From: Haliclystus octoradiatus
Lineage: Eukaryota; Cnidaria; Staurozoa; Stauromedusae; Haliclystidae
Length of the DNA stretch: 64,000 bases
Direction of reading: 5' to 3'
NCBI GenBank assembly: GCA_916610825.1
Contig: OU744447.1
Span: 818,146 to 882,145, forward strand
In this document: piece after piece, positions 13,046-60,000 of the stretch
How positions within the stretch are numbered: the stretch's first letter is position 1
Layout: every line of letters starts with the position of its first letter
Made by a program: the position numbers and the translations under genes
The notes under the pieces: generated by a model
Told to the model about the DNA's origin: nothing
What the model saw: only the letters and a program-made list of their open reading frames with translations
The model's database searches: none

Positions 13046-13096
13046 GATAGTAGCTCATATAGGATATGGATGGATTTTTGTAGCCTACTTGAAATA

Positions 13097-13136
13097 AATC
13101 GCCCGATGATCACCAGATGGAGTGAAGTATCGTAAT
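13097..13136 (+). ncRNA. Degenerate hammerhead-like module
   Basis: CCGATGA, then a TCACC..GGAGT arm pair, then GAAG and a CGTA, in the same order and spacing as the better copy at 13706. Two core bases are wrong (CCGATGA for CTGATGA, GAAG for GAAA), so it should not cleave. Followed by a TTTTATT-rich tail as in the 44954 and 57046 copies. Confidence 0.35.
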
Positions 13137-13705
13137 CTAGCAAGTCTCATTTGTGTCTCTCATTATATATTTGCTCACTGCAAGATATATTATTTTATTT
13201 TTTATTTTTATTATCCAGTTTATTACCAAATGTTATATTTAGTACTTTAAGTCAGGTATTGGATATAATTTGGGAACATGAGTTTTCTGCAAAACAACGA
13301 ATTTAGAGATTTATATAGAGACAAAAGCTTAAATATTAGGTATAATTTTACTTTTATTCCTTAAATATAAAATAATTTAAATATATTTGTAAAAAGATTA
13401 AGAGACTTTCAGAATTAAGTATTTCCTTAAGGCAGTAAATAAATTGAATTGTCTGTTTGCAATCACACAGCAAATAGGTAACGCCTAGTTTACAAAAAAA
13501 CAGCAAAAACGACAAAAAAGATTACAGTCGCAAATGCCGACATCAAAATACGTTCTATTTATCAAACTTTAAATCTTAACAATAAACAGGAACTTTCCGC
13601 TATACGAACAATGTAATTACCAAATATAAACAATAGAAAACTTAACAATAAAATTAGCTGCTTATATATTTACCATATAATGTATCACATATTTTTCACA
13701 GATTA

Positions 13706-13798: not shown

Positions 13799-13950
13799 TA
13801 CTATGAAAACTGTATATAACAGCCAGCTACGAGGATAGGTATATTGACCACTATATACAGGTGGCCCTTATACACAGGGTTGATTCAGTAGAAAAATACT
13901 ATTTGATATACTATATGGACATATCAAGAGTGACCGTGTGTTTGACTGTA
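13799..13950 (+). mobile_element. TA-flanked MITE (CAGTGAAACCTG family), internally deleted copy
   Basis: Diverged terminal repeat TACTATGAAAACTG at the left and TTTGACTGTA at the right. The interior matches the family seen intact at 48820-49000 (CAGCCAGCTA, TTGACCACTATA, ACAGGTGGCC, TTGATTCAGTAGAAAA). Part of the right half is missing. It ends 20 bp from a ZNG1 exon. Confidence 0.65.
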
Positions 13951-22900: not shown

Positions 22901-25900
22901 CGAGGCTATCTGAAATGTTGAAAATAGTTAATTATAATAGTGCGAATAAGTACGGTTTTCGCCCAAACAGTTACATGGGAATCAACATAGTTGCCTTCAA
23001 AGACATCTATTGTACATCAGTTAATCAACATTAACAAAATGGTTTTCAGATTGTTTCATAACTTCAGTGGAACTGAATCCATAAACTAAACATCGTCAAT
23101 TAACAGATCCATAAGATGGAAATCAAGTAGAGGAAGATTTTTTGACAAATCAAGCTTTTACCTTTGTGTAATTTTTTGCATCAACGACCGTCACAATTGC
23201 ATCCAAGTAAACATCTGCCTCCAGTTCATCATCTAACCAAAACATTCTAGCAATTGGTCCGGGGTCAGCTAAGCCAGTTGTTTCAAGTAAAATGTAATCA
23301 AATTTCCCTTTCTTTCTCATTAGATTCTCTATTGCAGCTATCCCGTTATCCCTGAAAAGAAAACGTTGAGATTGAGTGTGACTGACTAACATCAGACGTT
23401 GAGATTGAGTGTGACTGACTAACATCAGAATGTAGACGCTACTTTTAACTATGCAAATATTACACGCTAGCAGTTAAGGTTGCAATCGAATGACAATATC
23501 AAAAATGGTGTCAAACGGGGTGGCAAATAAATAACAGAGTTGAATTACGATGTCTCGCGATGTAAACAAACATTAATGACCTACTCAACGAAAGTTAAGT
23601 TGTGAAAGAATAAATCAAAGAAGCTTTGTTTTCCATAAATAAGATCTACATTTAGAAAGAACAGAACACAATTATAAAAAATAAACTATTTTATTGCACA
23701 AAAACCACTAAAGAAACAAAAGTATTTTTCACGATTTATCGATTCACAATTTCATAATCGATTCATGAAAATATAATCGATTAATCGATGAATCAGACCC
23801 TCCCCTATTCAGATATTATAAAAACCTTTTAATTTATTAGCCTGTGGACAAAGTTGGCAAAATAATGAAGTTAAATCAAATGATATTATCCTAATTTTGG
23901 CTACACAATGACAGTGATATTAACATATTTACTGACGAAAAGCGGCAGATTCCCTCTGGAATGAAGTATAGATAGAGAGAGATAGGTGATGGTTGTAATT
24001 ACCTAACTGAGCAACACAGACAGCCGTTATTTAATTCCAACCATTCTTCGTATAATTCCCCAGATTGACTCACCATCAGTGGTTTTTCAACTGCATTTCC
24101 TGGAACAAAAGAAATCTTTATTAATCTGAATTTTAATTGATCTGCGTTATTAACAAGAATATCTTTGTTGATAATTTATCTCAATTGCGTAATGTGTCCA
24201 GTAAAAAGTTACGGTTTTCAAGATAAAATGTCCACAACACAGTTGGAAACATTTTCCCATGAAGAGTTGATCATTACTGGACGTCATGTAATGTATGTAA
24301 ATTTCTATATACTAGATTTCTAGTTGCATGCAAATGCATCCTTGTATTGAGTTGTGAATTATCTGGCTCGACTGGTTCAAATAAATGCATGAAGAAATCT
24401 ATGTAGAAAAGATGATTGAAGCCGAAATTTAATTCAGAAATTATTCTATTTTATTTTTTGCTGTTCAAAGAAGCAAAAAGTTGAGAAGTAAAAAGTGGAT
24501 TTTAAGTAGCCATACACCCCCCCAAAAAAAAAAATCGAAGAAACATTTCTAACCCGAGTGTCATAAAGCTGCAAGGTTACAATTATTGGGGGTTTGTCTA
24601 AATTTTATTATGTTCCACCTAACAACACTGGCACATCCCAAAAAACTTTGATTGATTATTTTTTATTCATAACGTGGTTATTCAACATTTACAAGTGACT
24701 TCTGAAAAAGTATAAAATGAGAAACTATTTATCATCTTTACAGCTTATTTTATTAATTACTGTCAATGTAGGCCTACATTCTTTTATTATATTTTAATTT
24801 ATTTGTTGTCACTGATGAAGTGGGAGTTGGTATTGCAATTGTTTCTATATTTTAATTAATTTCATTGCAGTACTGTACAATTTAACACTGGCTGTAATAA
24901 TCAGGAAATATTTTTATTTTATATCTTCGTAATTTAATTTCCATAACGCGTGTTTGTTTACAAATTTCATAACCTTATATTCAAGTCATTTTCAAATAAT
25001 AATTTATGATAAATCATTAAATAATTTCCAACTGAAGATAAGATGATGACACATCTTATTTGTTTCACTTTCATATAAATATACGTGTTGTTTTGTTAGT
25101 TTACGTTTGAATTTCATTCTGATAATTACTACGATGGAAATACACAAATTACCTGTCACGTCACAACAAAGGATTGTGCTGTTTCGTGTTTGCGAGACAA
25201 TAGAAATTCATTCAAGTGCGAAACTGCTTAGTTAGCGCTTCAGTCTGAGAAAGCATTGTTGTTGAAAAAGGAAACAGTTTTCATTGGTTTTTATCAACTT
25301 CGATGTATTTATTTAAGAAATGAAGCCGGCCATGTACGCCTCTGGTTAATAACGAATCCATTGATATGTGTTCAAGTCAATTGCATCAAAAAAGGCATCG
25401 TGAATCCCCGCCTTACATACAGACATACAAATGGAAATAGCGTAAATTTAAAAGTAGGAGCCTAGATGGATCTACATTAGAACTTATGAGATTTTATTAT
25501 TATTATTGTTGTGTATTGATAGCTTTTAGAAATCTTTAGTAATTATTTTCTTTTCAATTTTAAATTTCTTAATAATGTAATTCTTTCTACTACACTATCT
25601 AGGTATCTGGATTATTTCATGTAGCTATCAAAAAACAATACAGATACTGATATTAAAATTGTGAAGTGATTTGAGCTGGTTCTCAGAAACATGCATGCTC
25701 CCATTTTACAAAGTGATAGACATCAAGATTACCAGCGTGTGCATGTAGGCTACTGTAGCTTACATTAGATACGGCCATAATGCTGTGATTATGTAAACAA
25801 GTCATCTGAATTCAACTCACATGCAAACCGTCTGAACAAAATGATAACCAGAAGCTGAGTGTGATTATGATTGTGGGTCTTGATAACACATTCGGAGCAT

Positions 25901-33400: not shown

Positions 33401-36400
33401 GTTGCAACATGTTCAATGGTAAGCTATGCATATACAATTTAAATTTTATTTAACAATCTTCTTGCAACTTCTCGCTACTTTATTGCAGATATAAATTAGT
33501 CCGGTAGTCAGCTTAAGTTTATAAACAACAAACTTTTATATTACAGTACAAACTGCTAACATGTATGTATTTTTAGATACTCAATAGTTACCTTCTCAAG
33601 TTTGCTATTTTGTGGGGCTGTATTTTGTAGGAAGTATTAATATCCAACTGTTTTATTTTAAAAATTAAAGCTGAATCAAATCGAATTAAAATTCATTCTC
33701 CAAATCACGACGCTGCAGTCGTCATGGATGCCTTTGATTGACGGTTGTATTTAAAATTAATTTTGCAGAAAGCGAATAAATAGTTGGAATTTATATTTTT
33801 TGATATGTTTTGCTTGTAGCTTGTACCACTAGTCGGTTTCTACTAAAACAATTAGACAACCTGGGCTCGCATTATTTAATTTTTAGTATTTTTGTGAGTC
33901 ACATTATAAGAATGTGTCAAAGTGTCATTCCTCTTGTTGCCAACATCCAACTGAGAAATAGGCTGCATATACTGTATCCCTTCGGAATCCTTTCCATCTA
34001 CATATTCACTGTCATCATTTGATGTATTAAGATGTGCCTGTTTGAGTTATGGATCCACTTCTACTTATTGTCTGCGCGTTTATTGCAATGGCATTAACTT
34101 CTGTTTGGACTGCAGCTACATAATATGTAAATGATTTCGAATTGATCAATTTTTATAGCCTACCATTTAGTGTACTATAGGGCACAAAGGTAGATAAGCC
34201 AATGGCAATAAAATAAACTGGAAAAATGGAATAAACAACAAATTTTGGATCTCTGATATTTCACCCTCATCAAATGAAGATAATCACAGTCATCATCCTC
34301 TTATTTGATCGAAAGAGAAACATATTACCAAACCTGTCTATAATGGTCACCTGTCTATAGTGGTCCTTCTTGCAATGTTGATCTGCAGTGTCGCAGCTAA
34401 GATTAACAAAGAGCACTTAAAATCATTGCTCTCAGCGAAAAAAGCCACTCCTAGATAATTAGATAGAGGAGTGGTACGGGTACCTTTGGTAGGGCGACAC
34501 CGTCTACATTACTTTTATTACTTTTATTTGCAATATCTAAAATAGTATTTTCTATTGAATCAAACCTTTATAAAAAGTTTACCTGTCTATAGTGGTAAAT
34601 TTATCTACATCTTGTAGCTGGCTGCTATATATACAAGTTACACTGTATTTGATTACGGTAGCATTTTCATTGTTGGTATGTCTGGTGATGATGATCATTG
34701 TCTAAGCCTACAGTCTAATGTGTTTTCAAATGTTAGGCTATTGTCACAATTTTACCAAAATGTTTTTTATTTCAATTTTCCAGTCTCAGAATCAACTCAT
34801 GGAAACCTCCCTTTCAACCATTACTCTACACCATACCATGGTTCTGCATCAGCAAAGACCCAATATAATAAGCTGCAGGGACTTCTCACTCAACAAGAAC
34901 TCGATTCAAACATTAATTCTACATTGAATATCAACCAAACATCTAGCAGCCATGATTTACTAATGACAATGTATGAAAAACTGGAGACTCAGCAAAAGGT
35001 GTACTTTTCATTGTTACACTAACTATTATGATATTAAAAGTTATTTTGTTTCTATTGGGGAATAAATAGCTTATGTAAATCTTTATGCTCTGTTTTCTCT
35101 TGTTGGATTAAGACTATCAACAATTTGAGTCAAACAATTCGTATCATGGAAGAGCAGCATAAAGATCAAGCTATTGCTGTAGAGCGTCTCCAAGGTAAGT
35201 ACATATTACGATTAATACAAAAATTTCAGATAAAATGAAATCAACAAATCCGGACTCCCATTTGAAACAGACACATCTGTTTCCATTTCCATTCTAAACA
35301 GATCCATATATTAAATCTGATTCGTCTTTCAGGATTTCAGATCATAGGATCATCAGGCCCTGCTTGAAACTTTACACATTCAAAACTCTCATAGCTGGCT
35401 GTTATATACGGCTTCATTGTAGTATTTTCTATTGCATCAACCCTGTATAAGTGTATATAGGTCACCTGTATATAGTGGTCAATCTATCTACCTCTCATAG
35501 CTGGCTGTTATATACGTGTTTCACAAATTTCACTGTTATTTTCATCCCCTTCTTTCGATTTGAACCATCATGATTTTCATTGTGATGCCTTAAAAGGCTT
35601 TATTGGAAGAAATTGCCTCCATTTGAAATTGTCTCCATTTGAAATTTCTTCCATTTGAAATTGCCTTCATTTGAAATTGTCTCCATTTGAAATTGCCTCC
35701 ATTTGAAATTGCCTCCATTTGAAATTGTCTTCATTTGAAATTGCCTCCATTTGCAATTGTCTCCATTTGAATTGTCTCCATTTGAAATTGCCTCCATTTG
35801 AAATTGCCTCCATATGAAATTGTCTCCATTTGAAATTGCCTCCATTTGAAATTGTCTCCATTTGAAATTGCCTCCATTTGAAATTGTCTCCATTTGAAAT
35901 TGCCTCCATTTGAAATTTCCTCCATTTGAAATTGTCTCCATTTGAAATTGTCTTAATTTGAAATTGCCTCCATTTGAAATTGTCTCCATTTGAAATTGTC
36001 TCCATTTGAAATTGCCTCCATTTGGAATTGTCTTCATTTGAAATTGCCTCCATTTGAAATTGCCTCCATTTGAAATTGCCTCCATTTGAAATTGCCTCCA
36101 TTTGAAATTGCCTTCATTTCAGAAAAGATTGTGTCCATGCAAGATATCAAAAGGGACTCAAAAGAGCAATTACAATGGTCAAAGGTAATCTAATATAAAA
36201 ATAAATAATTATAATGGTTGATGGCCGTTGGCCACTGATGAACAGTTCAACTTCTACTGGCTTACAGCCGCTTACATATATGTTTGAACTAGCAAACTTA
36301 AATTTATCAGCTGTGTCAACCAATCAAAAATATACACACTGGCGGTTGGTTGTTCACAAGCAGCAGGCAATGTGACTTGTGTTTATGTAACAAGCATTGA

Positions 36401-39400
36401 TGATTTTGAGTGTATCGATGAAAATTTAATTTTATATATAATGAGCAGTTGTATACAGGGTTTTGAGAAAAGCCGTATTCGAAAGAGTTGTTATTTCACC
36501 CATAACAATATGATATTTTTACAGTAAAAATAACACTTTCAAACCAATCAATGAACTCCAAATAAAGCTCTATATTATCAAATATATCAATCATCGCTTT
36601 ACTTATTTACTGTATTGTTTTTTTACTTATCGTTATATTTTCCTGTTCTATTTTACCATACATCTTATTATAGTAGTCTAATAAGTCCTTTTAAACAAAG
36701 TTATACGTGTAATCTGACTTAAAGGATTCTGAATTAATGATGATGATAATAATAATTCAATGAACGTTGCTTTTCGATGTTTAGAATTTAAAACTGGAGT
36801 TTCAATCCAAAATGTACTAATAATAGCAAAAAATAATTTTATAAATCAAGTATTACACAGTTCGTCTTGCAGTGTTAATCAATAGCAAGTTTTGCAACAT
36901 TTGATAATTATTGCATAACAGTAATTGTTTGCTAGCCTTTAACTGTAATTATTTTAATCAAAGTGGAAGACGTCTCAAGAAAAAGGTTTAAGAGAGCTAG
37001 ACGATCGCATCAATCATGTTGAAGAAATGACAATAATGTCAGCACCAAATACTGACATAGACAGAAGGTAAATTATATTGTCACTGGACTATGCATGTGA
37101 TATTAATAAGAGATGCTGAGCACTGTGGTATACTGCAGAAATAAATATATCAATGCCTAGGCAATCTCATATTATATTGTTCACCTTCACTTATTTTCTC
37201 TTTGACGTTATTGTCTTAATAATAATAATAATAATAATAATCTTGCAGGTTAAGTTCCCACCTTCAAGAAATGACAAACATGTTTCAACACGCTCCTAAC
37301 ACAAACAATTTGGAGAAATTTATATTGAATTTCAACCGCTTTTTCTTTTACGTTTCACATTTTAGATGCAAAATAAATTTCACAACTACTGCACATTGGA
37401 TGATTTCAAGTCAATAGTCAAAACTCATTTATTTTTAATTCAAAATTATGTTATTAAAGTTTATGTTAATGTTGAAAAAAAGCGCTCTTGGATTTATACC
37501 AGAAAAAGAGCGCTATTTAAATGTAGTTATAATAATAATAATAATTATTATTATTATTATTACAGTAATATTGATTATCCTTAATCTTAATTTTAGATTT
37601 GCAAATATTATTGATGACTACAAAAATTTAGAAAGAAATGTCAAGACAGTTAAATTTTCTGTCTGTAAGTCCTTTACAAAGTTATTGATTTAACCTAGGT
37701 AACATGATCATTTATTGAGCAGTACATGCAATTCATAATATTCAGAAAAGGCTTCACTACAGTTCATTACATAAATCATCATAACTGCTAGATCAAAATG
37801 AATTGAATTGAATTTGAAAACAGTTCCTCGTAATAATAATATATTTTTATTGGCTACACCCCCTGGACAAACATTCTGGATTCTTTTGAGTTTGTCAGAT
37901 ATGGAATCCTTAACTCTACTATCAACTACAGCAGCTGCATTCAGCCGTTAGAAAATCCCCTTGAAATTGGACATGGTTGGATATCTGGAAATTGTCTGTT
38001 GCACATGTTTACAGACTTACCAAATAATCAACTTGCCGCACTGAGCACACTGTCCTGATATTATCAGATATTGAACTCTCTGTTCCAAATTCCTCAGCTT
38101 CTATCCAATTTTTGAAACAAAATTATCTGAATTAATTTATTTTCTTCCATTCATCTAGAGAGGGCAATTAACAACTATTACCGACTATCCACTTGTGTTT
38201 AACGGCATAGGCAAACAAACGCAACCTTTTTGGTCCAACAAAACCAATAAATGTGGAAACAACATACTTGTGGTTATTCCCATGATCCTTAGTCCATCTG
38301 CATACTTTATTATATTTGTGTTGATCAAATAATTCTTTTTCAGCTCAATTAGAAAACTCAAGGAATGACATTGGTTACTTCAAATCTAGTCCGCAAAATG
38401 AAAACAGTCACGTTTCCAAGGTAACACGTCTGGTAGGATGAAATCAGCTAGCTGAACAAACAAAATAACTATAAATAATTTGCTACTTTTATAACAATCA
38501 AAACGTGGAAGTGTTCAATCAATTGTTGCCTGCCATCTGAGTGAGTACAGGAAACCTGTATATAACAGCCAGCTATTAGAGGTAGACAGATTGACCACTG
38601 TAGACAGGTGGTCTTTATATACAGGTTTGATTCAATAGAAAATACTACAGTTAAACCTGTATATAACAGCCAGCTATTAGAGGTAGATAGATTGACCACT
38701 GTAGACAGGTGGCCTTTATATACAGGTTTGATTCAATATAAAATACTACAGGGAAACCTGTATAAAACAGCCGGCTATTAGAGGTAGATAGATTGACCAT
38801 TGATTGTGCTTTTGAACCTAGTTTTGGTATGGTTATTTTTTTTCATAACTCTAAACCAATCAGATTAATCAAATCAATTTCGTTATAATACAAAGATAGG
38901 TGGATGTTGTATAGAGGTGACTGTTATAACACGTTTGACGGTAATACATTCTTACCTATACTAATTTAAATATACTAATCAGGCTGGCCTGACACGTGTT
39001 TCATCTTTGCCAAAAGACTCATCAGGGATCTTTCTGATATTGTGGCTCTTAATTCTGAAGTCCCACTGAATAGTTGATCTAGATCTAGATGTTATTTAAA
39101 ATTGGAAATGTAAATTAAAAATTGTCTAAACTAAACATCAAGTTTCGAATAAGTTAATTAAAAAATGGCAAAATGTTATACAAATATCAAACTAATTGAC
39201 TTTTTAAATTGTTTCTATTACAGGAAATAGATATCTTGCGGAATGATCACATCTCTCAACAAAATACTATTCAAAGAATAAATGAAAGACAGATTGATTA
39301 CAATACACAATTAATAGATTTATGGTAATGCATTGAGATTGAGACATTGTTTTATCATACTAACAATATAGAATAGACAGAAAGATGAGGCAAAAGCCTT

Positions 39401-42400
39401 TTCCGTTACTCGGAGTTCCACCACGCGTTTACTTTGTGTTCATCAGACCGTTGACGGAAACCGTCTGATGAACGCAAAGTAAACGCGTGAAACTCTGAGT
39501 AACGGAAAAGGCTTTTGCCTCATCTTTGTGTCTATTCTATATTATGCTTTGTCTTAACAAACATTGAGCACTCTCACATACATGTGTTCACCTCATAATA
39601 TACTATATTATCATATTAACACTATGAGATTTAAAAGTAGCCTACTAAAAATACACTGAGAAAAAAAACTCTACTGAAATCCCAGTGATTTTTTTAGTAT
39701 ATTTTCAGCATTTTTTCAGTAGTTTCAGTATATTTTTAGTTTATTCAGGAGATCTTAAGAAGAGATAGATAAAGAGAAGATGCATTACGCAAAAGTTTCA
39801 TGAAACATTCATCTGCATAAAATAGTCCCTTTTTCATTAAATTTTGATAGTCACTTATAATATTCGTCTTTGTACTATGGTTTATATGTATTGTCTATGT
39901 ATCCTGTTCATTGTTCATAAAAAGGATCATTTCAATGTTTTAATAATAATAACAGTAATAATAATATTATATACATTTATATAGCGCTTTACAAATTTAA
40001 ATTAAGTGAAACTATAAGGAACTGAGAAAGTAAAACAGTATTTTAGACATTTAAGTAATCTGAAAAATAAAAAGTAAAATTAGCTATTCGTTTAGACAAT
40101 ATGTTGTCAGCAGTATTCATCGAACGCTTTCTAGAATAAATAAGTTTTCAACATGTGTTTGAAAATTGGTATCGAAATGCAATTTTTCAAATCACCTGGC
40201 ATTTTATTCCATAATAACGGCGCTACCATAGAAAAGGCTCGGTCCCTGTAAGTTTTAAAATTACTTGAACGAACATGTAAATTGTTTTTGGATGATGAAC
40301 CCTAACGTCTTGGAGGATTTTAAACCTCTAACAATTCTTTCAGATATACAGGGGCCAGGCCATGAAGAGATTTGAAAGCAAGCAATAATATCTTGAACTC
40401 AATTCTTTAACAGACAGGAAGCCAGTGAAGTTCAAATAAAATTGATGAAATATGATCATATTTCAGTGTTTATGAATCAAAGAGCTGCGTTAGCATATGT
40501 TTAATTTGGTTTGTCTTTTATTTTTAGTAATGCCATGACAGAAATAAAACAAACTTTAGACAAGGAAAAATCAAATCAAAAGAAATATTACAACGGTTAG
40601 TATAAAAAGTAATTGAAATTCAGTTCAACTTCTCAAACGAAGCTTACGTCAAGATATGTACCACAGTCCCCTAATTTCATTAAAAAATAATAATTGACCT
40701 TATAATGGCTAATAAGTGCTACAGTTTGGCTGTATCTAACTGTGTGATGAAAGGTCGGCCTTCTGCAATTCTTGAAAGTGTTTTTTCTTCTGTTGAATTT
40801 TTTGTAAATGTCTTTCCCATGAATCAGAAAATAAAATTTGTCTTCTTAAAGATTTTTCTCTAGCTTTCTGCAATCTGGGGTTGAAGATATCCTCGCTTGT
40901 CAGACTATGCTTATATATGTAGGCAATGGAACTGTTTATTGAGTCTCATGAACCTGAAATGGTCCAACTGTTTATGAAGTTTCAGAGTTTTGGCAATTTG
41001 ACGACTGTGACCTGTTAATGGTCCGTTACCAAAATGTTCATGAAATGTTCTTGAGATATTCATAACGTTTCATGAAGATGTTGGTGATTTGAATTTCATG
41101 AATGACTGTCAAAAAAATATCCATAAAATGTTCATGAACTCATCAATTTTGTTGACAATTGTGATGAGCACCTGTTTAGAGTTAAGTCAATATTTCTGTA
41201 GGTTACTATAATGTGCTAATGATCCCAACCCCTGCGAAAAACAGTTCAGGATGTCATGAACAGTTCATGAAAATTGGGTCATTCAACGTTCATGAACTAA
41301 TTCATGAAATGTTCATGTACTGTTTATAAACTCCTGAACTGATTTTCACAGTAATTTGTATATATTTTATTCATCTATTTGAATTTTAGCAGTGGAATAC
41401 AGTAGGCATGTTAAGAAATGTCAGCCTCTCGCCTCAAAGAAGTACCCACATAAAAGTACTGGAAAATATCCGTCTTTGGATAAAACCCGTAAATCAAAAT
41501 CAGATTTAAAAATTCCTCTTAAATATCAATCAACAAGATTAAAATCAAACAATATTGATGACGTTAATGATGACATCTCATTACAATTCACAACAAATTA
41601 TTCTGACGTTGTCACAATTTCTGATATCGATACTGACGGTGAGTCACTATTGACTTTTTCAGTTTTGTTAAAATAATTGTAGTGTAGTAATTTAATTAAA
41701 AACTATGCTACCATTTAGCAGAGAAAAGTTGTCTTTGGTTGCCTTCTGCTCAATATTAACTATGCTACCATTTAGCAGAGAAAAGTTGTCTTTGGTTGCC
41801 TTCTGCTCAATATTAACTATGCTACCATTTAGCAGAGAAAAGTTGTCTTTGGTTGCCTTCTGCTCAATATTAACTATGCTACCATTTAGCAGAGAAAAGT
41901 TGTCTTTGGTTGCCTTCTGCTCAATATTAACTATGCTACCATTTAGCAGAGAAAAGTTGTCTTTGGTTGCCTTCTGCTCAATATTAACTATGCTACCATT
42001 TAGCAGAGAAAAGTTGTCTTTGGTTGCCTTCTGCTCAATATTAACTATGCTACCATTTAGCAGAGAAAAGTTGTCTTTGGTTGCCTTCTGCTCAATATTA
42101 ACTATGCTACCATTTAGCAGAGAAAAGTTGTCTTTGGTTGCCTTCTGCTCAATATTAACTATGCTACCATTTAGCAGAGAAAAGTTGTCTTTGGTTGCCT
42201 TCTGCTCAATATTAACTATGCTACCATTTAGCAGAGAAAAGTTGTCTTTGGTTGCCTTCTGCTCAATATTAACTATGCTACCATTTAGCAGAGAAAAGTT
42301 GTCTTTGGTTGCCTTCTGCTCAATATTAACTATGCTACCATTTAGCAGAGAAAAGTTGTCTTTGGTTGCCTTCTGCTCAATATTAACTATGCTACCATTT

Positions 42401-44276
42401 AGCAGAGAAAAGTTGTCTTTGGTTGCCTTCTGCTCAATATTAACTATGCTACCATTTAGCAGAGAAAAGTTGTCTTTGGTTGCCTTCTGCTCAATATTAA
42501 CTATGCTACCATTTAGCAGAGAAAAGTTGTCTTTGGTTGCCTTCTGCTCAATATTAACTATGCTACCATTTAGCAGAGAAAAGTTGTCTTTGGTTGCCTT
42601 CTGCTCAATATTAACTATGCTACCATTTAGCAGAGAAAAGTTGTCTTTGGTTGCCTTCTGCTCAATATTAACTATGCTACCATTTAGCAGAGAAAAGTTG
42701 TCTTTGGTTGCCTTCTGCTCAATATTAACTATGCTACCATTTAGCAGAGAAAAGTTGTCTTTGGTTGCCTTCTGCTCAATATTAACTATGCTACCATTTA
42801 GCAGAGAAAAGTTGTCTTTGGTTGCCTTCTGCTCAATATTAACTATGCTACCATTTAGCAGAGAAAAGTTGTCTTTGGTTGCCTTCTGCTCAATATTAAC
42901 TATGCTACCATTTAGCAGAGAAAAGTTGTCTTTGGTTGCCTTCTGCTCAATATTAACTATGCTACCATTTAGCAGAGAAAAGTTGTCTTTGGTTGCCTTC
43001 TGCTCAATATTAACTATGCTACCATTTAGCAGAGAAAAGTTGTCTTTGGTTGCCTTCTGCTCAATATTAACTATGCTACCATTTAGCAGAGAAAAGTTGT
43101 CTTTGGTTGCCTTCTGCTCAATATTAACTATGCTACCATTTAGCAGAGAAAAGTTGTCTTTGGTTGCCTTCTGCTCAATATTAACTATGCTACCATTTAG
43201 CAGAGAAAAGTTGTCTTTGGTTGCCTTCTGCTCAATATTAACTATGCTACCATTTAGCAGAGAAAAGTTGTCTTTGGTTGCCTTCTGCTCAATATTAACT
43301 ATGCTACCATTTAGCAGAGAAAAGTTGTCTTTGGTTGCCTTCTGCTCAATATTAACTATGCTACCATTTAGCAGAGAAAAGTTGTCTTTGGTTGCCTTCT
43401 GCTCAATATTAACTCTCTGAATGCAGTTTCAATTATTTATATTTCAATATCATATCACTTCTTTCAAACCTGATGAAATTTAGAATTGAGATTGTGAAGG
43501 GGAATTAATTCTGCAAAATTCTACAGACTGTTGAACTGAATATCTTTGATTGTGATTAGAGTGGATCACGGATGATTGCCCTTCTACTACTGCTTCTCTT
43601 TCACTCAAGAGTGAATTAGATGTTAACTAACTTGATGCTTCTTTATGTTACAAAACAATATAAAATCCAAAATTAGATTCAACGGCTTTGCAATGAGGGC
43701 TACTGAATAGAATACAGTTACAATAGCCAATAGTTGCTAAATTAATGTTTCAACTCAAATATAAACAATTAATGCTTTATAATTAGATGTTATCTAATAG
43801 CAAAGAATATAGTTCTCAATGTCATAAATGGCAGAGCTGTAAATAATAATAATAGAAATAGAAAGGAGTCTTTTCTGTCTGACGATTGCTATAAAAGCAT
43901 GAAACTTAAAGTTACAGTATAAGAATGTGTGGTCTCTGACTCCTTTCTATTTCTATTATTATTAATTAATGCTTTATTTACAAATCTCTACCAACAAATG
44001 AATCACAAAATTAAATACACAAGCAAACGAATTTAATTGTTTGGTTAATTAATATTTAGAGAGATTTTATTCACATGTTTTGCTTTATATCGAACCGTGG
44101 AGATCTTTTTTATAGGAACTGCTCTAATACAAGCCATTGTTGTATCTTACTCGTACTCTAACACTAAAATATCATCACGTCATCGTTAAATTTATTCAAT
44201 GTTTATTTTTGTTAAATTAACAGAATTACTTCAAAGCAGTCTATCATCCGATGGTGGAGAAGATATTTTTGAGTAA
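30475..44276 (+). CDS. Coiled-coil protein of unknown identity, thirteen or more exons
   Basis: Exons: 30475-30585, 32185-32218, 34784-34998, 35113-35194, 36123-36184, 36964-37067, from 37249 (3' border unresolved), 37597-37664, 38344-38420, 39224-39324, 40528-40595, 41390-41638 and 44224-44276. All except the seventh have GT-AG borders and matching phases, which is strong evidence for one gene of about 430 residues. It starts MMSRSTHRSSRRPSWDHDFD and ends SLSSDGGEDIFE. The middle is rich in Glu, Gln, Lys and Asn and predicted coiled coil; the penultimate exon is basic, then acidic. I do not recognise the family; a centrosomal, ciliary or cytoskeletal role would be a guess. Introns hold two large minisatellites, several MITEs and hammerhead-like modules. 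Confidence 0.72.
30720..31146. mobile_element. 430-bp element with ~36-bp terminal inverted repeats
   Basis: Left end GGTCGGCATTAGTTCATAGT then CAACATCGGTCCC; right end GGGACCGATGTTAACG then ATCTAATACCGACC. These pair over about 36 bases with few mismatches. The interior includes a tRNA-like stretch (30892-30955, minus). Non-autonomous DNA transposon or fold-back. Confidence 0.65.
30892..30955 (-). repeat. tRNA-like sequence inside the inverted-repeat element
   Basis: On the minus strand GGTGGCGGTTAAGGTAAC is followed by GTTCTAGTTCGATCTCCC, resembling a D arm and TPsiC arm (B box) of a Leu/Ser-type tRNA. No full cloverleaf, so a pseudogene or SINE-like relic. Confidence 0.35.
31445..31535 (-). 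repeat. tRNA-derived relic
   Basis: On the minus strand ATTAGAGCACTGGACC (D-arm to anticodon-arm like) and GGTTGTGGGTTCGACTC (TPsiC arm with B box) lie at roughly tRNA spacing. Acceptor stem halves do not pair, so this is a tRNA pseudogene or the head of an old SINE. Confidence 0.45.
32219..34325. other. Intron of the coiled-coil gene, nothing identified
   Basis: AT-rich intron sequence between exon 32185-32218 and the MITE at 34326. An ATTG microsatellite lies near 32580. No coding or repeat structure that I can support. Confidence 0.35.
34326..34647 (-). mobile_element. TA-flanked MITE interrupted by a SINE
   Basis: The left part TACCAAACCTGTCTATAATG to TTCTTGCAATG and the right part GCAATATCTAAAATAGTA to TTACACTGTA are the two halves of the CAGTGAAACCTG family, split by the SINE fragment at 34378-34527. 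Confidence 0.8.
34378..34527 (+). mobile_element. 5'-truncated SINE inserted in a MITE
   Basis: Matches the last ~130 bp of the SINE at 16737-17116, from TTGATCTGCAGTGTCGC to the conserved GGTAGGGCGACACCGTCTAC plus an ACTTTTATT-repeat tail. Flanked by TTGCAATG (34370-34377) and TTGCAATA (34528-34535), a duplication of MITE sequence. Truncation at the 5' end with an intact 3' end is what target-primed reverse transcription produces. Confidence 0.87.
35387..35525 (-). repeat. Fragments of the TA-flanked MITE
   Basis: CATAGCTGGCTGTTATATAC occurs twice, around GTATTTTCTATTGCATCAAC and CACCTGTATATAGTGGTCAA. A rearranged or tandemly duplicated right half of the CAGTGAAACCTG family, lying before the 16-bp minisatellite. 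Confidence 0.6.
35606..36116. repeat. 16-bp minisatellite, about 32 copies, abutting a splice acceptor
   Basis: Unit CCTCCATTTGAAATTG with frequent CCTCC/TCTCC/CTTCA variants, one 15-bp unit near 35770 and other single-base changes. It ends in TTGCCTTCATTTCAG, which is the acceptor of exon 36123-36184. Three units make 48 bp with no stop on the minus strand, which creates artefactual repeat-protein frames of up to 161 codons there. Confidence 0.95.
38546..38943 (+). mobile_element. TA-flanked MITE with its left half triplicated
   Basis: A ~100-bp block starting TACAGKNAAACCTGTATA and running to TTGATTCAATAGAAAATAC occurs three times in tandem (starts 38546, 38646, 38747). The normal right end, GGTGGATGTTGTATAGAGGT to TTTGACGGTA, follows at about 38895-38943. 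Confidence 0.8.
38985..39030 (-). ncRNA. Hammerhead ribozyme-like module
   Basis: On the minus strand: CTGATGA (39019-39025), a six-pair stem II GTCTTT-TGGC-AAAGAT, GAAAC, a stem III of ACAC/GUGU type (ACACGTGT) and a GTC triplet (38991-38993). Core and stems II and III are intact. Stem I is weak (C·A then G-C, G·T). In an intron of the coiled-coil gene. Confidence 0.55.
39368..39543. repeat. Long palindrome made of two inverted hammerhead-bearing arms
   Basis: Arms of about 80 bp: GATGAGGCAAAAGCCTTTTC..ACGCGTTTACTTTG on the left and its inverse CAAAGTAAACGCG..GAAAAGGCTTTTGCCTCATC on the right, with a short centre GACCGTTGACGGAAACCGTC. Outer flanks ATATAGAATAGACA / TGTCTATTCTATAT also pair. 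A fold-back element. Confidence 0.88.
39461..39505 (+). ncRNA. Hammerhead ribozyme, all three stems present
   Basis: Stem I CCGT (39461-39464) pairs with ACGG (39502-39505). Core CTGATGA is at 39465-39471, stem II ACGC/GCGT closes an AAAGTAAAC loop, GAAA is at 39489-39492, stem III ACT/AGT closes CTG, and the cleavage-type triplet GTA is at 39499-39501. This is the arrangement of type I hammerheads with minimal stem III, known from Penelope-like elements and metazoan retrozymes. The opposite arm (39403-39450, minus) carries a decayed copy (GGAAC for GAAAC). Activity is inferred, not shown. Confidence 0.65.
41222..41345. repeat. Dispersed repeat with GTTCATGAAC palindromes
   Basis: CATGAACAGTTCATGAAAATTG then AACGTTCATGAACTAATTCAT, collinear with 12956-13045. 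Related TTCATGAA words extend left to about 40910. It ends 45 bp before exon 41390-41638. Confidence 0.5.
41705..43414. repeat. 57-bp minisatellite, 30 identical copies
   Basis: The unit is ATGCTACCATTTAGCAGAGA followed by 37 more bases ending ATATTAACT; 30 x 57 = 1710 bp. I see no base differences between copies. It lies wholly in the last intron of the coiled-coil gene (41639-44223). Because 57 is divisible by 3 and one frame lacks stops, it shows a 571-codon open frame that repeats a 19-residue unit; I regard that as a by-product. Perfect identity means very recent expansion, strong homogenisation, or an assembly artefact. Confidence 0.97.
43842..43965. mobile_element. MITE with perfect ~26-bp terminal inverted repeats
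   Basis: Left AATAATAGAAATAGAAAGGA-GTC and right GAC-TCCTTTCTATTTCTATTATT are exact inverses. A 14-bp direct repeat AATTAATGCTTTAT occurs at 43767-43780 and 43964-43977, so the inserted unit may be larger and include the bases from 43781. Confidence 0.75.
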
Positions 44277-45504
44277 TTTTAATCTATGTTTAAATTAAAG
44301 CACTATAAAGCACAGTAATATACATTTTTATACTATATTTAAATAAGCAAAACAGTGTCTTATAAACTGTGAAACGCATTATATTTTCATATATATTCTA
44401 TTTTTTTAACTAATATTTCTGTAAATTCCTCTTTATAAACCAACTAATTAAAGTCTACTGATTACTTAATTTGCTATGATAATGTTAAATTTATTGTAAG
44501 TTTTTTTTATGAAAAGAACTAATAGATTTGCACTGTCTGTCTGTTGTTTTGCTGAAAGCGTTGAAGGTAGATGTTACAACCTTTTTCTTAAGTTGCTAAT
44601 TTCTACCCAAACAAAGAATTATTTTTTTCGAAATATAAATATATTGCATGTGTTTTGTTCCGTATACTTTTGAAACAGCTCTTCTCTGTTATTCTCAAGC
44701 CTCTCAACGGCTATTCATTATGCTTAACCAACAGAATAAATACCATTCACAGCAATATTTAATATTAAAGTAGTTGATTCCCGAAGAGTCGAAGACACTG
44801 TAATTATAAATGTCAAAGACAAATAAAAATGAGATTAACACGTACAATAGTTGACCATAATTAGGTTTATTGTTACTTTTGTCATTGTACGTATATTTTC
44901 ATAAAAATATTTAGAATTATATCCATAATCCTGAAATCTTGAATAATAAATTTATATTTGCCTGCTGATCGTCGTATGGCGTGAAATTCGGAGTAGAGAG
45001 AACAGTATGTCTCTTTTTTGACTCATTTTATTAATTTATTTATTAAAGCTCTGGTATTTGAAATTGAGCATTACATACCTACGCAAATGTTGACAATTAA
45101 CTTCTCATCATTATTTATCTAGAATTATATTCCAATTATTATTCTCAAATCATATGAGACAAGCTTTTGTTTAAACGTTTAATAAACACCTTTCTGCAGT
45201 AAATTCCTATATTCCTAAATTATTCCGTAAGTAATGTTATGTAAAAAGTGAAAGTTGAGGTAAAAGTTGTAAAAAGCTATTGCCATGGTGATATTGCGTT
45301 TACGTAATAATTGTTAAATTGCCTCAGTTTCAGTTTATCGCACCTTTTGCATGGTGGCACAATCATGGAGAGTTGGTGTCATGTGCAATTTTGACACAAG
45401 ATTCAAAAAGTGATACAGTTTCTTTGTATCAGGAACACACGAATTTCACATCTAATGGACTAGAGCTTTGTCTCATGTTATGATTATATTATTCGTACAT
45501 TGAT
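44277..45504. other. Intergenic region before MPV17L2
   Basis: 3' flank of the coiled-coil gene, then AT-rich spacer. It contains the hammerhead-like module at 44954-45047. No other structure identified and no clear promoter element for MPV17L2. Confidence 0.4.
44954..45047 (+). ncRNA. Hammerhead-like module with TTTATT tail (one core base changed)
   Basis: TTTGC, CTGCTGA (for CTGATGA), a GTCGTATGGC arm, GAAA, TTCGGAGTA, GAGAGAAC, then GTATGTCTCTTTTTTGACTC and a (TTTA)n-type tail. The 57046 copy is collinear. The two together imply a stem I of TTTGC with GCGAAA and a GTA triplet. The core change makes this copy probably inactive. Confidence 0.5.
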
Positions 45505-49506: not shown

Positions 49507-49602
49507 TAGCCTGCGTACAGACTAAAACGTTTCTGAAGGAAAGTGTAAACACTTACACTTTTACACTTTCCTTCAGAAACGTTTTAGTCTGGACGCAGGC
49601 TA
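49507..49602. repeat. Near-perfect hairpin (fold-back) with TA ends
   Basis: TAGCCTGCGTACAGACTAAA..GAAGGAAAGTGTAAA pairs with TTTACACTTTCCTTC..TTTAGTCTGGACGCAGGCTA, arms of about 42 bp around a ten-base centre. Flanking ATTCAC/GTGAAT extend the symmetry. Between MPV17L2 and ISCA1. Confidence 0.9.
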
Positions 49603-53300: not shown

Positions 53301-56300
53301 ATACATAAATAGTCACTCGCTATCACTGAGTATTGATTTATCTCATCTTGCATTGTTGAATTATTACAATTAGTTTTCAGCAGATTTTGAAAAAACATGC
53401 ACTCCTGTGTTGCAACCCTAAATTGCAGAAGGCTGCTGTAAAAATCACAAGGCTATATAGGCCTACAGCTAATTAAATTGCAATGGCTGTGCTTGAAAAC
53501 ACCTTTCTTCTGCTACTCAATTGCATATAAATTCCAGTTTAGTTTTAAAGTTTATATCCTGGATATTGGGAGATTGCTACCTGCTTTCGGAATGATGTTT
53601 TCAACGTCCAGCTGAAGATTTTGAGCTATATTTGGTGCACTATATTTGATCAATAACGGGATCCAAAAAAAGATATAATACGCCTTAAAGTCGAAAGTTT
53701 TTAGTTTTGGATTTTTCTCATTCAAGTGCTCACACGATTAACACCCCTTTACAACTTCATCTAAGCAGGTTATCGCTGCTGGTTATTGAAGGTGTGTGAC
53801 TATTTTTAATACGCTTCAACTATGCCGACTATGCTTAAACGAAGTCGTAAAGAGGTGTTAATCGCGTGAGAACTTAAGTGAGAAGAATACAAAACTAAAA
53901 ACTTTGACTTAAGAGGCTAATATCTCTTTACCTGTATCTTGAATATTGATCAAATATAGCTCTAAATCTCGAGCTGAACGTTGAAAACTTCATTCCGAAA
54001 GCAGATTGCCATTTGGTTCAGTCGTTTTTTATTTAGAGACAATTAAGTAAAATGTTTAGTGTTTTTTCCGGTGTAAACTCTCTTGTTGAAATAAACGGGT
54101 TCCTGTTGGAGGAAAAAGAGTGAGACACAAAACTAACCCAAAATCGTCACTTTGACTGCATTTTTGAAGGAGAAATGAACGCTCAAAGTAAAAAGACAAG
54201 AAGATCATGTACGAATAGAAAATTATTCTCTATCTAAAGAAGCGATCTCCCAATATCCGGGATATACACTTCAATTGATTACAATGTCATCATGACTACC
54301 AAAACGCTCAATTTTACCTGTGCCAGAAGAACATCCGTTTGTAGTGGTCATTGCAAGTGATCAGTATCATAGCCAGGATCTGGCAAAAGGTTCAGCCTAC
54401 TTCTGGGATCATTTCTAGAGGCATTTCAGCATTTTATTTTGACTGATCTATGAGTCCCGCTTTAATACGCCGCAATTTGACGAGTGGTAAGCGGGATCAA
54501 CACTTACCAACATATCAAAATCGTCAAAGTAAAAGTGAGACTTGGGCAAGTCAACATTTTCTTCTGAATTTTTTCGTTGAAGATTGACCAATAGATCATA
54601 AAAATATCAATTTTCTTCTGAATTTGCTCTAACCTTCTGGAACCTACTTTTGTCGGACCCTGATCCTTGTTAAACCCTAGATCGCCAACCAAACAAAGTG
54701 TTTCTTCTTCTGCAATAGGTTGCACTTCGTATTGGCGTAAGAGAACGTGGCTGCAATGGACTTTCCTACACTTTAGAATACACAAATGAGAAAAAAAAGT
54801 TTGATGAGGAAGTTAAACAAGGAGGTAGGCTACTGTCTCTTTAATCTTTACAAATCCTTTACAAATCCATCATCAATAGAGATCAAACATTATATTGTCA
54901 TCTTCAGGAATCTGAATATTTTAAAATGGAATAATTTGATTCAACCCATTGAAAATATTTTACTGCTACAGTATATGGTGTATATATTAACGCAGGACGC
55001 AGATCTAAAGCAGCTTCTGTCCACAGGCTTAACTTGAAAAAAATCAATCAAAATTCCTATGGCTGTAACTTATAATAAGTGCTGTTCATAACGCTTTAAA
55101 GAAGTTTAATGAAACAAGGGATGGAAAGTATTTTGACGTTGAAAGTCATCGATGAATATGTCCCATTGTCTGAATTTTAAATTGGTTTAAAAATTCTGCC
55201 ATTTGATGAACATGTAATGCCACTTGGGCAATGATTTTGAGAATTAAATCATTGAAATGTTATGAAACATTTGAGTTATCTTTATCTGATAATTATCACA
55301 TGAATCATTAGCTTGAATTTGAAAATAGTTCCTTATGATGTCATGCTTCTCAGTTCAAATGTTTATGTTATCGTCACGTGTCACGAGGCTTGCAGGGGTA
55401 CCGATAACATGACACCCTATGTCAGCGACAAAAGTAGGAGTTCCAGAATTAGGTTTCGATATAAACAGTAATCCTGGAATCTTAGATCCCAGAAGGCTAG
55501 AGCAAATTCAGAAGAAATAATGATAATTTTTATGATTTATTGGTCAAACTTCAACAAAAAGATTCAGAAGAAACTGTTGAAATGCCTCTAGGATTATAAG
55601 TAATGTAGATGGTGTCGCCCTACCAAAGGCACCCGTACCACTCCTCCATTTCTAGAGGAGTGGCTTTTTTCACTTAGAGCAATGATTTTAAATGCTCTTT
55701 GTTGATCTCAGCCGCGACACTGCATGTCAATTTCAACAGATTTCATGGCAGATAGGTCTCCATTGTCAATGCGCAACGATGCCCCGCAGCTATTTACAAC
55801 AATGCAATTCCCTCTGGACCATTCCATCCACCATCCTCAGATGGTACTCATTTGATGTTTTAGGCAAAGTCAAGGCTGAGTTGACCTTCGGGGGATTTGA
55901 ACCACAGTCAATCAGATATGATCCGATCTGAAGTTCGGTTGCTCTGCCATCTGAGCTAATCCTCGTCTAGGATTACAGAAGGTTGAACCTTGTGTTGGAC
56001 CCTGTATGTGAGGGGCCTCGATAATATATTTGTTTCTATTTCAGTTTGAGTTGTATTTGATTGAGTAGGCTACATATTTCAAGTTGGCTTTAGATGTCAA
56101 ATTTCGTGATCAAATAAGATTATGTCAATCTCTAAGGCACCATGCGGAGGTTTATACACGTTTAATCCTCATTTGTAGTAGATCAACTCAAATGAATTGT
56201 CTGTGGAATATAAAAGTTCTACTATTGTTGCCTAACGACCGTTTCAAATCAGCAATGGTTGTATGATTATGGCTTAGGATTCAATCCTGTTTAATCAGAT

Positions 56301-56516: not shown

Positions 56517-57004
56517 GAATACAGTTGGTTTTGTTTTCAAACTTATTATTGTCTTTCTGTAAGAAATGTAAATAGAATGGTTATTATGAGTGTATTAGCT
56601 AGTTACCACACAATAAATTAATAATAAAAGCTAATTATGTTATTCTTTCCATATTTCCTCTGGCTGATGAAAGCACAATTAACCTGCTAAAGCGCCCACC
56701 CTTTTAAGCGACCACATGACTGCATTATGATCTCACATTTACATAATGAGATTGTTCTCAATGTTTCTGTTTATTTTGAAGCTGCCAATGCTGTAATGCC
56801 ACGTAGCGTGTTCGTTCGATTAGAGACCCGATAAAATAGCTTATCCTGCAGAAAAAACAAGGTGAACAGCGCCGTTGCTGGCTGCCGAGAGAGGGGTTAT
56901 TCTACGATCAATTTAGGACATAGCTTAAAAATTTTCTAACTCATGTATTTAAAAAAGTATAATTTAGATTTTTATTTCCCTTCCATAATAAACAAATGCC
57001 TTTT
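56517..57004. other. ISCA1 3' flank
   Basis: AATAAA-like signals follow the ISCA1 stop (AATAAATTAATAATAAAAGC near 56610), probably its 3' end. Nothing else seen. Confidence 0.4.
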
Positions 57005-57095
57005 TAAATAAATAAATAAATAAAATGAGTCAAAAAGAGACATACGGTTTTCGCTACTCTGAGTTTCATGTCAGACGACGATCACCAGAATATCT
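57005..57095 (-). ncRNA. Hammerhead-like module with TTTATT tail (one core base changed)
   Basis: On the minus strand: TATT, CTGGTGA (for CTGATGA), stem II GTC-GTCT-GAC, GAAAC, TCAGAGTA, GCGAAAAC, then GTATGTCTCTTTTTGACTCA and a (TTTA)n tail. Collinear with 44954-45047. The GTA triplet and short stem III (ACT/AGT) are kept. Confidence 0.5.
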
Positions 57096-60000
57096 TTGTA
57101 TCGAATGCGTTTTTAAATACTAATTAAAAAATGTTTACATACATTTTCAAACCCAAAGTAAATCTTAAAACTAACTTAAAATATAGTAAAATATAGTAAA
57201 ATATAACAACATTTTGATTAGAAAAGAGTATGTCCATGTTTCAAGGTACCCATGTACAAACAAACAAACACGTAGTCATTTATTTTCCCCAACCAAATAT
57301 TAGCTTCGAGGATTTTTCACAAAACTGTTGGGCACATCAAGGCCCATCAAGGGCACGTAAGTTTCCGTATCCTGCTACGTGTAAACTTGAAGGTCGCAAT
57401 TACGAAAACAATCTACTCATCAGGAATCACAATACTATTAATTAATTAGAATATAGCTATCGATATAACTCTATGTGTATTTATAGAAAATAATGATATT
57501 GGCGATGTTCAACCGACAAATTAACTTCAAATTGAAGATACGATGGCGACAGCTTCGATTATGTCTAGCGGTCCTCTATATGACTATTGACTATGTCCCG
57601 TGCTAATTTCTTTCAGAATGCTTTTTGTGCGAACTTTAATATAGTTTTAATTAGCCTGGCGGTTTCCAAGCACCTGAAAAGCTAAATTTGATAGATGCCA
57701 AAACGGTAAAGGAAAGCCCGCACACGACTTGCACACGACGCGAAATATTGAAAGAACGATACTCAATAGTCTTTTTTGGGACATAGTAATGGGGTGTGAA
57801 CCAAAGGGAAAAACCCCTTTCCCGAGCAACATCAGGAATACGGTCAATCAAACTCAGTCATTTTGTTACAAAATATTTGATAGGTTGAAATACAACTGTA
57901 GACTATCAAGTTATCACGGATAAAACTCAACGACGTGTTAAACTATCCAGTCAACCAAATATCGTAAACCTTCAATGGACCCTATTTCGAACCTCATCGA
58001 AGAATTTTTGATACCAAAAATAACACAGACACCAAACAGCCGACCATCATTCGTGTGAAGTTTTAACAATCAAATTTAATTTCGGTGATTGTCTATCAGT
58101 CTGAACATCAAGCTCTCTCTAATTAAATGTTGGGCAGCTTTCCAATACAAACAGACGATTTCCAAAATCCAATATATTTGGTTCGTATTTTATGATAACA
58201 AAAATTTTCTCATGAAGATTGTTGAAGTTAGGATTTGTTTATCTTATTTTTATGGCATTTTTGCAGAGCATGAGATGGAAGTACAATAGATAATGGTCTT
58301 GGTGATGAAATGAGCTGCTATTAAAATTAATTAATGAGGTATTTTATCTGGTTTGATTACAACATGTACGTGAGGGCACAGCAGGGAGGAGCGACCCCCG
58401 GGGTGTATGGAACATTAAACAATAGTAAGAATAATTAGTTACCTACCACATACCGAGATAATGGGGTTTTAATTTGCAATTGATCTGTGATTGTACTATG
58501 ACAAATAACATTGGAATGAAAATGAGAGGAATGAAGCTCGTTTTTAATCAATCGTATTTTTGTATCTCAAGAATTGATCATTTATTACCTTGGTTGAACA
58601 CCCCCTAACTGTATGTATGACCACGTTAAATTAAATTAATTTAATGTAATATCAATCGACGTTGCAAAATTTTGAAAGTAGACAGATAAAACCAGAAAGG
58701 GCTGTACAATTACGTCATACTGTTTTCAGAAGACAATAAAATCCCGATCAAATGGAATATTTTATTCGGTGTTCTTGGGAAAGCATTGCACTGCAGTATA
58801 GCGGCATAGCGGGCTGCTTCGATTATTTTTAATAAAGTTTGTCTGTTTATCACAGTAGGATTTTAAGATTAATTACACAAAAATAGACGATGAAGATATG
58901 TTGAGATCTCCTGTGGTTATACAAAGAGCATTTTGACGCCAATCTCAAAATATTAGCATTGAGTCTAATTTAACTTTCTTTGCACAGCTAGATGATTTCT
59001 TAGCGGGGTGCCGTCGCCACACAATGAACAGTTAAAAGTAATGTCTATAATCATCAAATCGATCACGTGCGTGCAATCTGATTGACATATCTTTTGTTCT
59101 AAAATGTCCGGATGGTCAGACATCAACACCGGTTGCGTGTGAATACAATAATACAATACGTTGATCTATCTTTTATCTTGTGAGAATGTGTCATGAAACG
59201 TTCTCTTTGACTCAATCAAACTCTATTTTCTTCTAATTTCCTACTTTGCCGGTGAATCACCACCGACATTCAAAGATCATCATTTGTTTGCAGATAACTT
59301 GACGATCCACGTGCTAAATACCAATGTCTACTCGTGATTACCGTAGAGGCTGTCCGATAACAAAACAGCCATTCCAACATTGCTGGTCCCTTGTTTGTAA
59401 TCAACTTTGCTCTGTGAGATATAATTCCAACCTTGTATAGGCTGTAAATAAAACAGTGAGACTGATCCCTAATTCCCTGAGAACTATGTATGCTGTACTT
59501 CTCTTTCTTCTTGATTTTTATCTTGATAAACTTCTCTATGAGATGTGCTCCCCTGTGGCTGAAATCCTGAAGGAAACAACGCCCGCTGCTTAAGAGGATT
59601 GAAAAAAGACAGTTTTAAAACAACCGAAAGGAATAAGACATGTCAGTTTTTAATCATGTTTGTCTGTGAAAAACTATTGGGTTAGTTTAATAAATTTTGC
59701 AGTTTCACTCAATCTGGTCAAACAATGATGTAGACTTTGGGACCCCCTTCGCGGTTCAACCATTCACACCTAAACGAACCCCATGAAATTTCACAGTTCG
59801 TCGGGGACCTTTCGTGCGATCATTCGAGTAACCCGCTGATGCTCAAACGTTTGGTGTTTCTAGTTAAAACAGCAGTCTTTACAATTCAAAATGTTTTTTT
59901 GTAGCTGCCTTGTCAAATCTAGAAGAAAATTCAGGTTCAAACAAGACGTCCCGTTAGCTTGTCATATCTCGAGGACTGACTTTTTCCCCACGACGTACAA

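Follow-up and report, generated by a model that had tools for sequence, protein, structure and literature searches.

A palindromic repeat carrying a minimal type I hammerhead motif in Haliclystus octoradiatus, and its probable origin as a dispersed non-coding retroposon

The locus

The window, by which we mean the whole 64,000-nucleotide stretch analysed here, contains a minimal type I hammerhead ribozyme (HHR) motif with an intact core in one arm of a 179-bp palindrome. Putative exon and hammerhead features at the locus are given below, with scores from three covariance models: R1, which was built from 25 phage HHRs, R2, built from the 39461 and 43874 motifs only, and R3, built from all five copies of the family.

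38991..39025, minus strand: separate minimal hammerhead relic of the Penelope type (CTGATGAGTC...GAAACACGTGTC), stem I broken; R1 16.9 bits
39224..39324, plus strand: putative coding exon upstream of the palindrome, 33 open codons, AG before and GT after
39365..39543, no strand: head-to-head palindromic element, an inverted duplication of HHR and 3' tail, 179 bp; arm complementarity and self-BLAST
39400..39453, minus strand: decayed hammerhead copy in the minus arm; R2 39.4 bits, R3 30.2 bits, arm alignment
39461..39505, plus strand: minimal type I hammerhead motif, intact; descriptor match, R1 14.9 bits, member of the R2 and R3 training sets
39506..39543, plus strand: 3' tail of the repeat unit, which makes up the outer palindrome arm; tail comparison with the 57088(-) copy

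Stem I of the 39461 motif is formed by CCGT (39461-39464) and ACGG (39502-39505), 4 pairs, and encloses the core CTGATGA (39465-39471), a stem II of 4 pairs between ACGC (39472-39475) and GCGT (39485-39488) with a loop of 9 nt, GAAA at 39489-39492, and a stem III between ACT (39492-39494) and AGT (39498-39500) with the loop CTG, for which there is an alternative of 4 pairs with a 1-base loop. The cleavage triplet is GTA, and the predicted cut lies between 39501 and 39502. Every element of a type I hammerhead that the initial annotation had listed was thus found in place: the core set (C3 U4 G5 A6 N7 G8 A9, G12 A13 A14, A15.1-U16.1 and H17, as defined in the available text of PMC3088659) is complete, the core-adjacent pairs of the three stems (4, 4 and 3 or 4 pairs) are formed, and the conserved C-G beside A15.1-U16.1 is present. 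Stem II has an A-U pair at its foot, a state shown by 0 of 103 phage reference HHRs. Tertiary contacts between loop I and loop II were not evident in the motif; such contacts are absent from minimal HHRs according to the part of PMC7761336 available to us.

The sole basis for placing the motif in an intron, as initially proposed, is the same-strand putative exon at 39224-39324. The phase of this exon gave no simple fit to the next open frame (41383 on), so that the gene model is incomplete or wrong. A Pfam search of the exon gave no match at E 0.1. Elsewhere in the window, a CobW-domain reading frame was identified at 23153-23473(-) (Pfam PF02492, 1.3e-14).

Structure of the palindrome

The palindrome had been described as 176 bp long with the motif in its plus arm; the arm was correct and the length is 179 bp. 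The outer arms (57 nt) are 95% complementary and the inner arms (31 nt) 94%, and self-BLAST aligned the element with itself at 89% over 182 columns. The order of the parts is inverted tail, inverted HHR, 6 nt, HHR and tail, with the centre of the palindrome at the HHR end of the unit. The minus-arm HHR at 39400-39453(-) is decayed, in agreement with the initial annotation: stem I and stem II are each broken by one change, and GAAA by a change together with a 3-nt insertion. At stem II and GAAA the plus-arm state is common to the related HHR at 43874 and the minus arm differs, for which reason the minus arm looks like the decayed one. At the differing position in stem I, 43874 carries a third base, which pairs.

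The 65 nt past the predicted cut at 39501 resembled the equivalent segment of the 57088(-) copy (under each of two nulls, 6 of 2000 segments drawn at random from the window scored as high), while the similarity of this same tail to the other three copies was weaker or absent. Two further palindromes were observed in the window, a near-perfect one at 49507-49602 (arms of 43 nt, 98% complementary), with none of the listed hammerhead-model matches inside, and an imperfect one of 440 bp at 53573-54012 (73%, self-BLAST).

Related copies within the window

Four other members of the family and a possible sixth were identified in the window, one of them within a second inverted repeat.

43835..43973, no strand: second inverted-repeat element of the family, arms of 36 nt, 92% complementary; inverted-repeat search
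43875..43917, plus strand: related hammerhead (43874 copy), intact core, with U-U as the foot pair of stem II; R1 15.0 bits
13705..13750, plus strand: family member (13712 copy), intact core, stems I and II mismatched at their feet; R2 29.4 bits, E 8e-5, and tail
44955..45002, plus strand: family member (44962 copy), core residue A6 lost; R2 18.1 bits, E 0.054
57048..57095, minus strand: family member (57088 copy), core residue A6 lost; R3 55.2 bits, R3 having been built with it
13096..13146, plus strand: possible sixth, decayed family member; R3 14.6 bits, E 0.1

In their stems, the 39461 and 43874 motifs have 15 of 20 positions in common, a level matched by 0 of 270 chance HHRs, and their flanks alone showed no significant likeness (158 of 4913 and 197 of 4922 window segments were as good). 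The R2 model recovered the three copies on which it had not been trained, at 13705, 57048 and 44955 (29.4, 19.9 and 18.1 bits), compared with a best score of 15.8 bits in 100 kb of AT-rich T4 DNA; the match to the 57088(-) copy (E 0.019) was shorter, covering 57048-57081, and in the register adopted here it fits no more than the 3' half. For the candidate at 13096, random segments aligned as well in 10 of 2000 draws against 13712, 8 of 2000 against 44962 and 140 of 2000 against 57088. A match at 45667(+) (R3 14.9 bits) was partial and was not counted, and an early reading of 13707 as the end of a coding exon was dropped once the R2 score and the tail similarity had tied it to the family.

The tails of all five copies each resemble at least one other (at most 16 of 2000 random draws as good), although several of the ten tail pairs do not stand out, the worst at 274 and 387 of 2000. 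Between 44962 and 57088(-), 32 of 40 columns are alike over the HHR and 44 of 53 over the next stretch, followed by 36 of 69. Upstream of the HHR these two copies are 55-57% alike, at or just above the null 95th percentile of 55%, and a BLAST alignment of the two extends across 229 columns at 67%. The 5' end is therefore not sharp, and the unit may be longer and more diverged. Among the arrays that Tandem Repeats Finder lists, none extends over a copy of the family. Searches of viral contigs, genome contigs and phages yielded no copies beyond the window, these viral, bacterial and archaeal collections being uninformative on animals.

Covariation among the five copies

The hammerhead structure was applied to an alignment of the five copies (A3), giving 12 pairs and 60 stem cells. 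Of these cells 51 were paired, a value reached in 1 of 500 shuffles, and in 6 of the 12 pairs both partners had changed (reached in 12 of 500 shuffles). The covariation score was 0.50 against 0.28 in the shuffled alignments, none of which (0/500) attained the observed score, and structures slid along the alignment gave scores of 0.04-0.18 with 32-53% of cells paired. The number of further pair types was not unusual (72 of 500 shuffles). When the 3' halves were permuted among the copies, 2 of 120 arrangements, counting the real one, paired as well as observed, with single stems at 16, 12 and 6 of 120. Between 39461 and 43874 there is one C-G to U-A exchange in each stem, which 68 of 500 two-sequence shuffles equalled. 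The shuffles ignore the kinship of the copies, and since the copies are related and were found with stem-bearing models, which favours paired copies, we regard the covariation as support and not as proof. Together with the arm comparison with 43874, it supports the initial assignment of the motif to the short-stem-III hammerheads of the Penelope or retrozyme kind.

A three-stem RNA with paired changes could also be the tail domain of a SINE or LINE, serving for example in reverse transcriptase binding, that at no time worked as a ribozyme. In favour of this are the U-U at the stem II foot of four of the five copies (A-U only in 39461), the loss of A6 in 2/5, the short stem III, the lack of recognised loop-loop contacts, and the single dispersed copies with a T/A-rich tail. 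Against it, all core residues except A6 are retained in 5/5 copies and the whole core in 3/5, and weak cleavage, 22% in one hour, has been reported for a natural HHR of the axolotl whose stem II has U-U at its base (PMC7229834, available text). Some core-adjacent pairs are mismatched in the copies other than 39461. We consider this origin unlikely.

Inverted ends and flanking repeats

Inverted ends in 2/5 copies (39461 and 43874) are also what would be expected of a foldback or MITE-type DNA transposon that had acquired a hammerhead, with the arms as terminal inverted repeats and TA or TATA as the target duplication. Consistent with this, TATA flanks the 39365-39543 palindrome on both sides, and the 57088 copy is bracketed by a 16-nt inverted pair (56945-56960 / 57105-57120, 88%) that is AT-rich and is not its tail. 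On the other hand, the TATA repeat is itself palindromic and TATA/TA flanks are uninformative as a target duplication; no bracketing inverted repeat was found at the 13712 or 44962 copies, and a retroposon-like tail is present in the 57088 copy, as is a possible direct duplication of 16 bp. The latter matches at 15 of 16 positions, is weak (129 of 3000 null pairs were as good) and is the only suggestive target-site duplication around the family copies. In the second inverted repeat, at 43835-43973, the mirrored part is the tail only. A DNA transposon seems to us quite unlikely on this evidence.

Chance expectation and comparison with reference hammerheads

Motifs as compact as that at 39461 occurred 6 times in 3,080 Mb of random sequence matched to the window in dinucleotide composition, or 1.2e-4 per 64 kb. 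A shorter-loop descriptor gave 25 matches in 2,520 Mb (6e-4 per 64 kb), and 0.015 matches per 64 kb were obtained when long loops were allowed (200 shuffles). The chance rate varies with the descriptor, and the motif by itself is no proof of a ribozyme. With a looser minimal descriptor, 0 matches were found in 100 kb of T4 DNA, in line with the chance prediction. Candidates from the loose descriptor at 20149(+) and 20151(+), which overlap and have long loops and CTGAAGA, were dropped, as was 45671(+), in which stem III has only two pairs.

A scan of the window with Rfam at the gathering threshold returned no hammerhead. The Rfam model RF00163 (Hammerhead_1) has the same core and stem order as the 39461 motif, and no hammerhead was matched at E up to 10 on 601 and 65 bases around 39461, nor did RF00163 match 43874 at E up to 10. 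The relic at 38991-39025(-), which has a perfectly palindromic stem III (ACAC/GTGT) and which we take to be of the Penelope type, scored 15.0 bits (E 0.33), below gathering. As a control we used viral contigs fetched by an HHR pattern (120 loci), and Rfam at gathering was silent in 16/16 of the loci scanned; an evident phage HHR in one of them, L062, scored 30.5 bits against a gathering score of 34. Silence at gathering is therefore uninformative and does not refute the 39461 motif, and Rfam was set aside as its judge. The initial annotation would have rejected the motif on the lack of a covariance-model hit; there is indeed no Rfam match, but that rule is too strict, as the L062 hammerhead shows. 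The silence at E up to 10 shows that 39461 lies further from the Rfam consensus than this control.

We also scored the stem pairs, N7 and H17 of the 39461 motif against 103 distinct type I-order HHRs from viral contigs. The score of -5.1 bits was below all 103 references (lowest real value 0.1) and was reached by 7 of 793 chance motifs, with the caveats that the score was trained on the same 103 HHRs and that it is doubtful whether phage HHRs are a suitable yardstick for a family from an animal. The low value is due mainly to the A-U at the foot of stem II, where the pattern used to fetch the phage HHRs fixes G-C; the 31 references outside the pattern have G-C in 29 cases and G-U in 2. In the R1 ranking of the window, 38991(-) came first with 16.9 bits, followed by 43873(+) with 15.0, 39459(+) with 14.9 and 46756(+) with 13.9 bits, the next being at 10.3; the best R1 score in 100 kb of T4 DNA was 12.5 bits. 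The partial match at 46756(+) aligned without the GAAA half and was not counted. When run on 25 phage loci, part of which had served to build it, R1 gave 34 matches (E up to 0.1) at 14.9-66.9 bits, placing 39461 at the bottom of the range.

That a palindromic repeat merely happens to match a short motif, as the small size of the motif, its low phage-based score, the silence of Rfam and the approximately 2 equally compact matches expected per gigabase might suggest, is very unlikely given four relatives with paired changes within the same 64 kb, 4 matches to the looser minimal descriptor against 0.11 expected, and the location of the second related motif, 43874, in an inverted repeat when the seven chosen long-armed inverted repeats cover 1.6% of the window.

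Predicted folding and activity at the locus

As RNA, the 39365-39543 element is predicted to form a hairpin of -136.7 kcal/mol. The predicted cost of enforcing the HHR fold rises from 2.8 kcal/mol for the 45-nt motif to 6.6 for 65 nt (10 flanking bases on each side), 26.5 for 101 nt and about 60 kcal/mol for the full element, and even when the 45-mer is taken alone, the predicted probability of stem III is about 0.02. Transcription produces the left arm first, and the predicted minimum energy drops steadily as the right arm emerges. By these predictions, the ribozyme would be silent at its locus with the arms paired, and we would expect an effect on the host RNA like that of a long hairpin and nothing further.

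The initial annotation had suggested that the motif might cut the host pre-mRNA or release small circular RNA. Its core and stems are intact and in sense to the putative exon, amniotes have conserved intronic HHRs (PMC6155905, available part), and most invertebrate retrozyme HHRs have a stable stem III and cleave as monomers, although a weak stem III often blocks monomer cleavage (both in the accessible text of PMC7761336). With the hammerhead predicted to be locked in the hairpin and lacking a tandem partner, the suggestion finds no support here: cutting of the pre-mRNA is unlikely, and so is a circle, since this requires two cuts and the locus has one cut site. We hold an active intronic ribozyme to be highly improbable. 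For a Penelope HHR of the anole, cleavage needed the protein of the element and insertion did not need cleavage, according to the available text of PMC11167929, which also mentions earlier self-cleavage of a Penelope-type HHR in 3-25 mM magnesium.

Relationship to known elements and proposed origin

Animal genomes contain thousands of dispersed minimal type I HHRs, some of them in Penelope pseudo-LTRs (pLTRs), and their activity and role have been called a mystery for the Penelope type (PMC7761336, as far as available). Like the HHRs of Penelope-like elements and Terminons described in the accessible portions of PMC7761336 and PMC7229834, the motifs found here have the type I order and a very short, near-palindromic stem III and are dispersed in non-coding DNA. 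They differ from these in having A-U or U-U and not G-C at the foot of stem II, and in the very short unit, which has no recognised open frame and is non-tandem in the window. In four regions around the copies, inspection by eye of the 20 longest open stretches revealed no Penelope reading frame, which would encode a reverse transcriptase and a GIY-YIG endonuclease; an intact element may lie elsewhere.

Inverted pLTRs that form head-to-head palindromes have been described for Penelope elements and read as self-priming on an antisense template (PMC3846280, available text). The 39461 element resembles these in that its copies are inverted head to head and meet in a palindrome, but the arms in the family measure 36-88 nt against about 180-220 bp for the pLTRs described in that text, in which the word hammerhead does not appear, and no reverse transcriptase was recognised nearby. 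The inverted HHR units are seen without a recognised element body and so cannot be named pLTRs. Metazoan non-LTR retrozymes, as presented in the available part of PMC7229834, are likewise small, non-coding, low-GC repeats with a type I HHR and a weak stem III, and one axolotl class has U-U at the base of stem II as the family copies do; they are tandem repeats of 150-450 bp, whereas the copies here are single and shorter. In a limited search, the literature available to us contained no published case of a hammerhead inside a palindromic or MITE-like element.

Because of the likeness to inverted pLTRs, the thousands of dispersed HHRs and the relic at 38991(-), which lies 0.5 kb from the 39461 motif, we place the family with the dispersed minimal type I HHRs and regard its derivation from, or mobilisation by, Penelope elements as probable. 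In our view 39365-39543 is probably a copy of a dispersed non-coding retroposon of the Penelope-like or retrozyme kind, inserted head to head with its own inverted copy and with its ribozyme now predicted to be silent. In a unit of about 100 bp, the minimal type I hammerhead would sit at the 5' end or close to it, followed by a linker and then by a T/A-rich tail. The inversion would most likely have arisen by self-priming at the ribozyme end, either of the cDNA or of an antisense template. The hammerhead of the plus arm retained all its core residues, and that of the minus arm decayed. In the active period of the family, element RNA was probably cut by the ribozyme at GUA|A, perhaps as a dimer through the near-palindromic stem III (ACUC-U-GAGU). 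The analysis shows the motif, its palindrome, the related copies with their paired changes and the predicted locking, and from there past cleavage, self-priming and Penelope-type mobilisation are what we infer for the family.

A bolder reading, to which we give little but not negligible weight, is that of a SINE-like family of about 100 bp, below the sizes described for retrozymes, whose 5' end is the hammerhead, in which self-priming recurs and yields head-to-head palindromes with a ribozyme on each strand; these would fold in the manner of a viroid rod, every ribozyme being shut off by its mirror image. The at least five related copies of the window, two of them clearly inverted, form a concrete family that allows tests of the ends of the unit, its past activity and the way it was inserted. 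The 39461 case also illustrates that an intact-looking intronic ribozyme need not work, and that the Rfam gathering score can miss an evident hammerhead.

Other repeats in the window

The window contains a 57-bp tandem repeat at 41701-43414 with 30.1 copies that are 100% identical and with open frames on both strands (574 and 578 codons), suggestive of an expansion in the very recent past or of an effect of the assembly. A 16-bp repeat at 35609-36119 has 32 copies and a minus-strand open frame of 172 codons. The open stretch at 40134-40301(-) resembles, by eye, the end of a LINE reverse-transcriptase frame, and a 101-bp repeat unit (CTGTATATAACAGCCAGC...) at 38546-38799 has relatives in the window, for example at 13804, 18877, 35476 and 48825.
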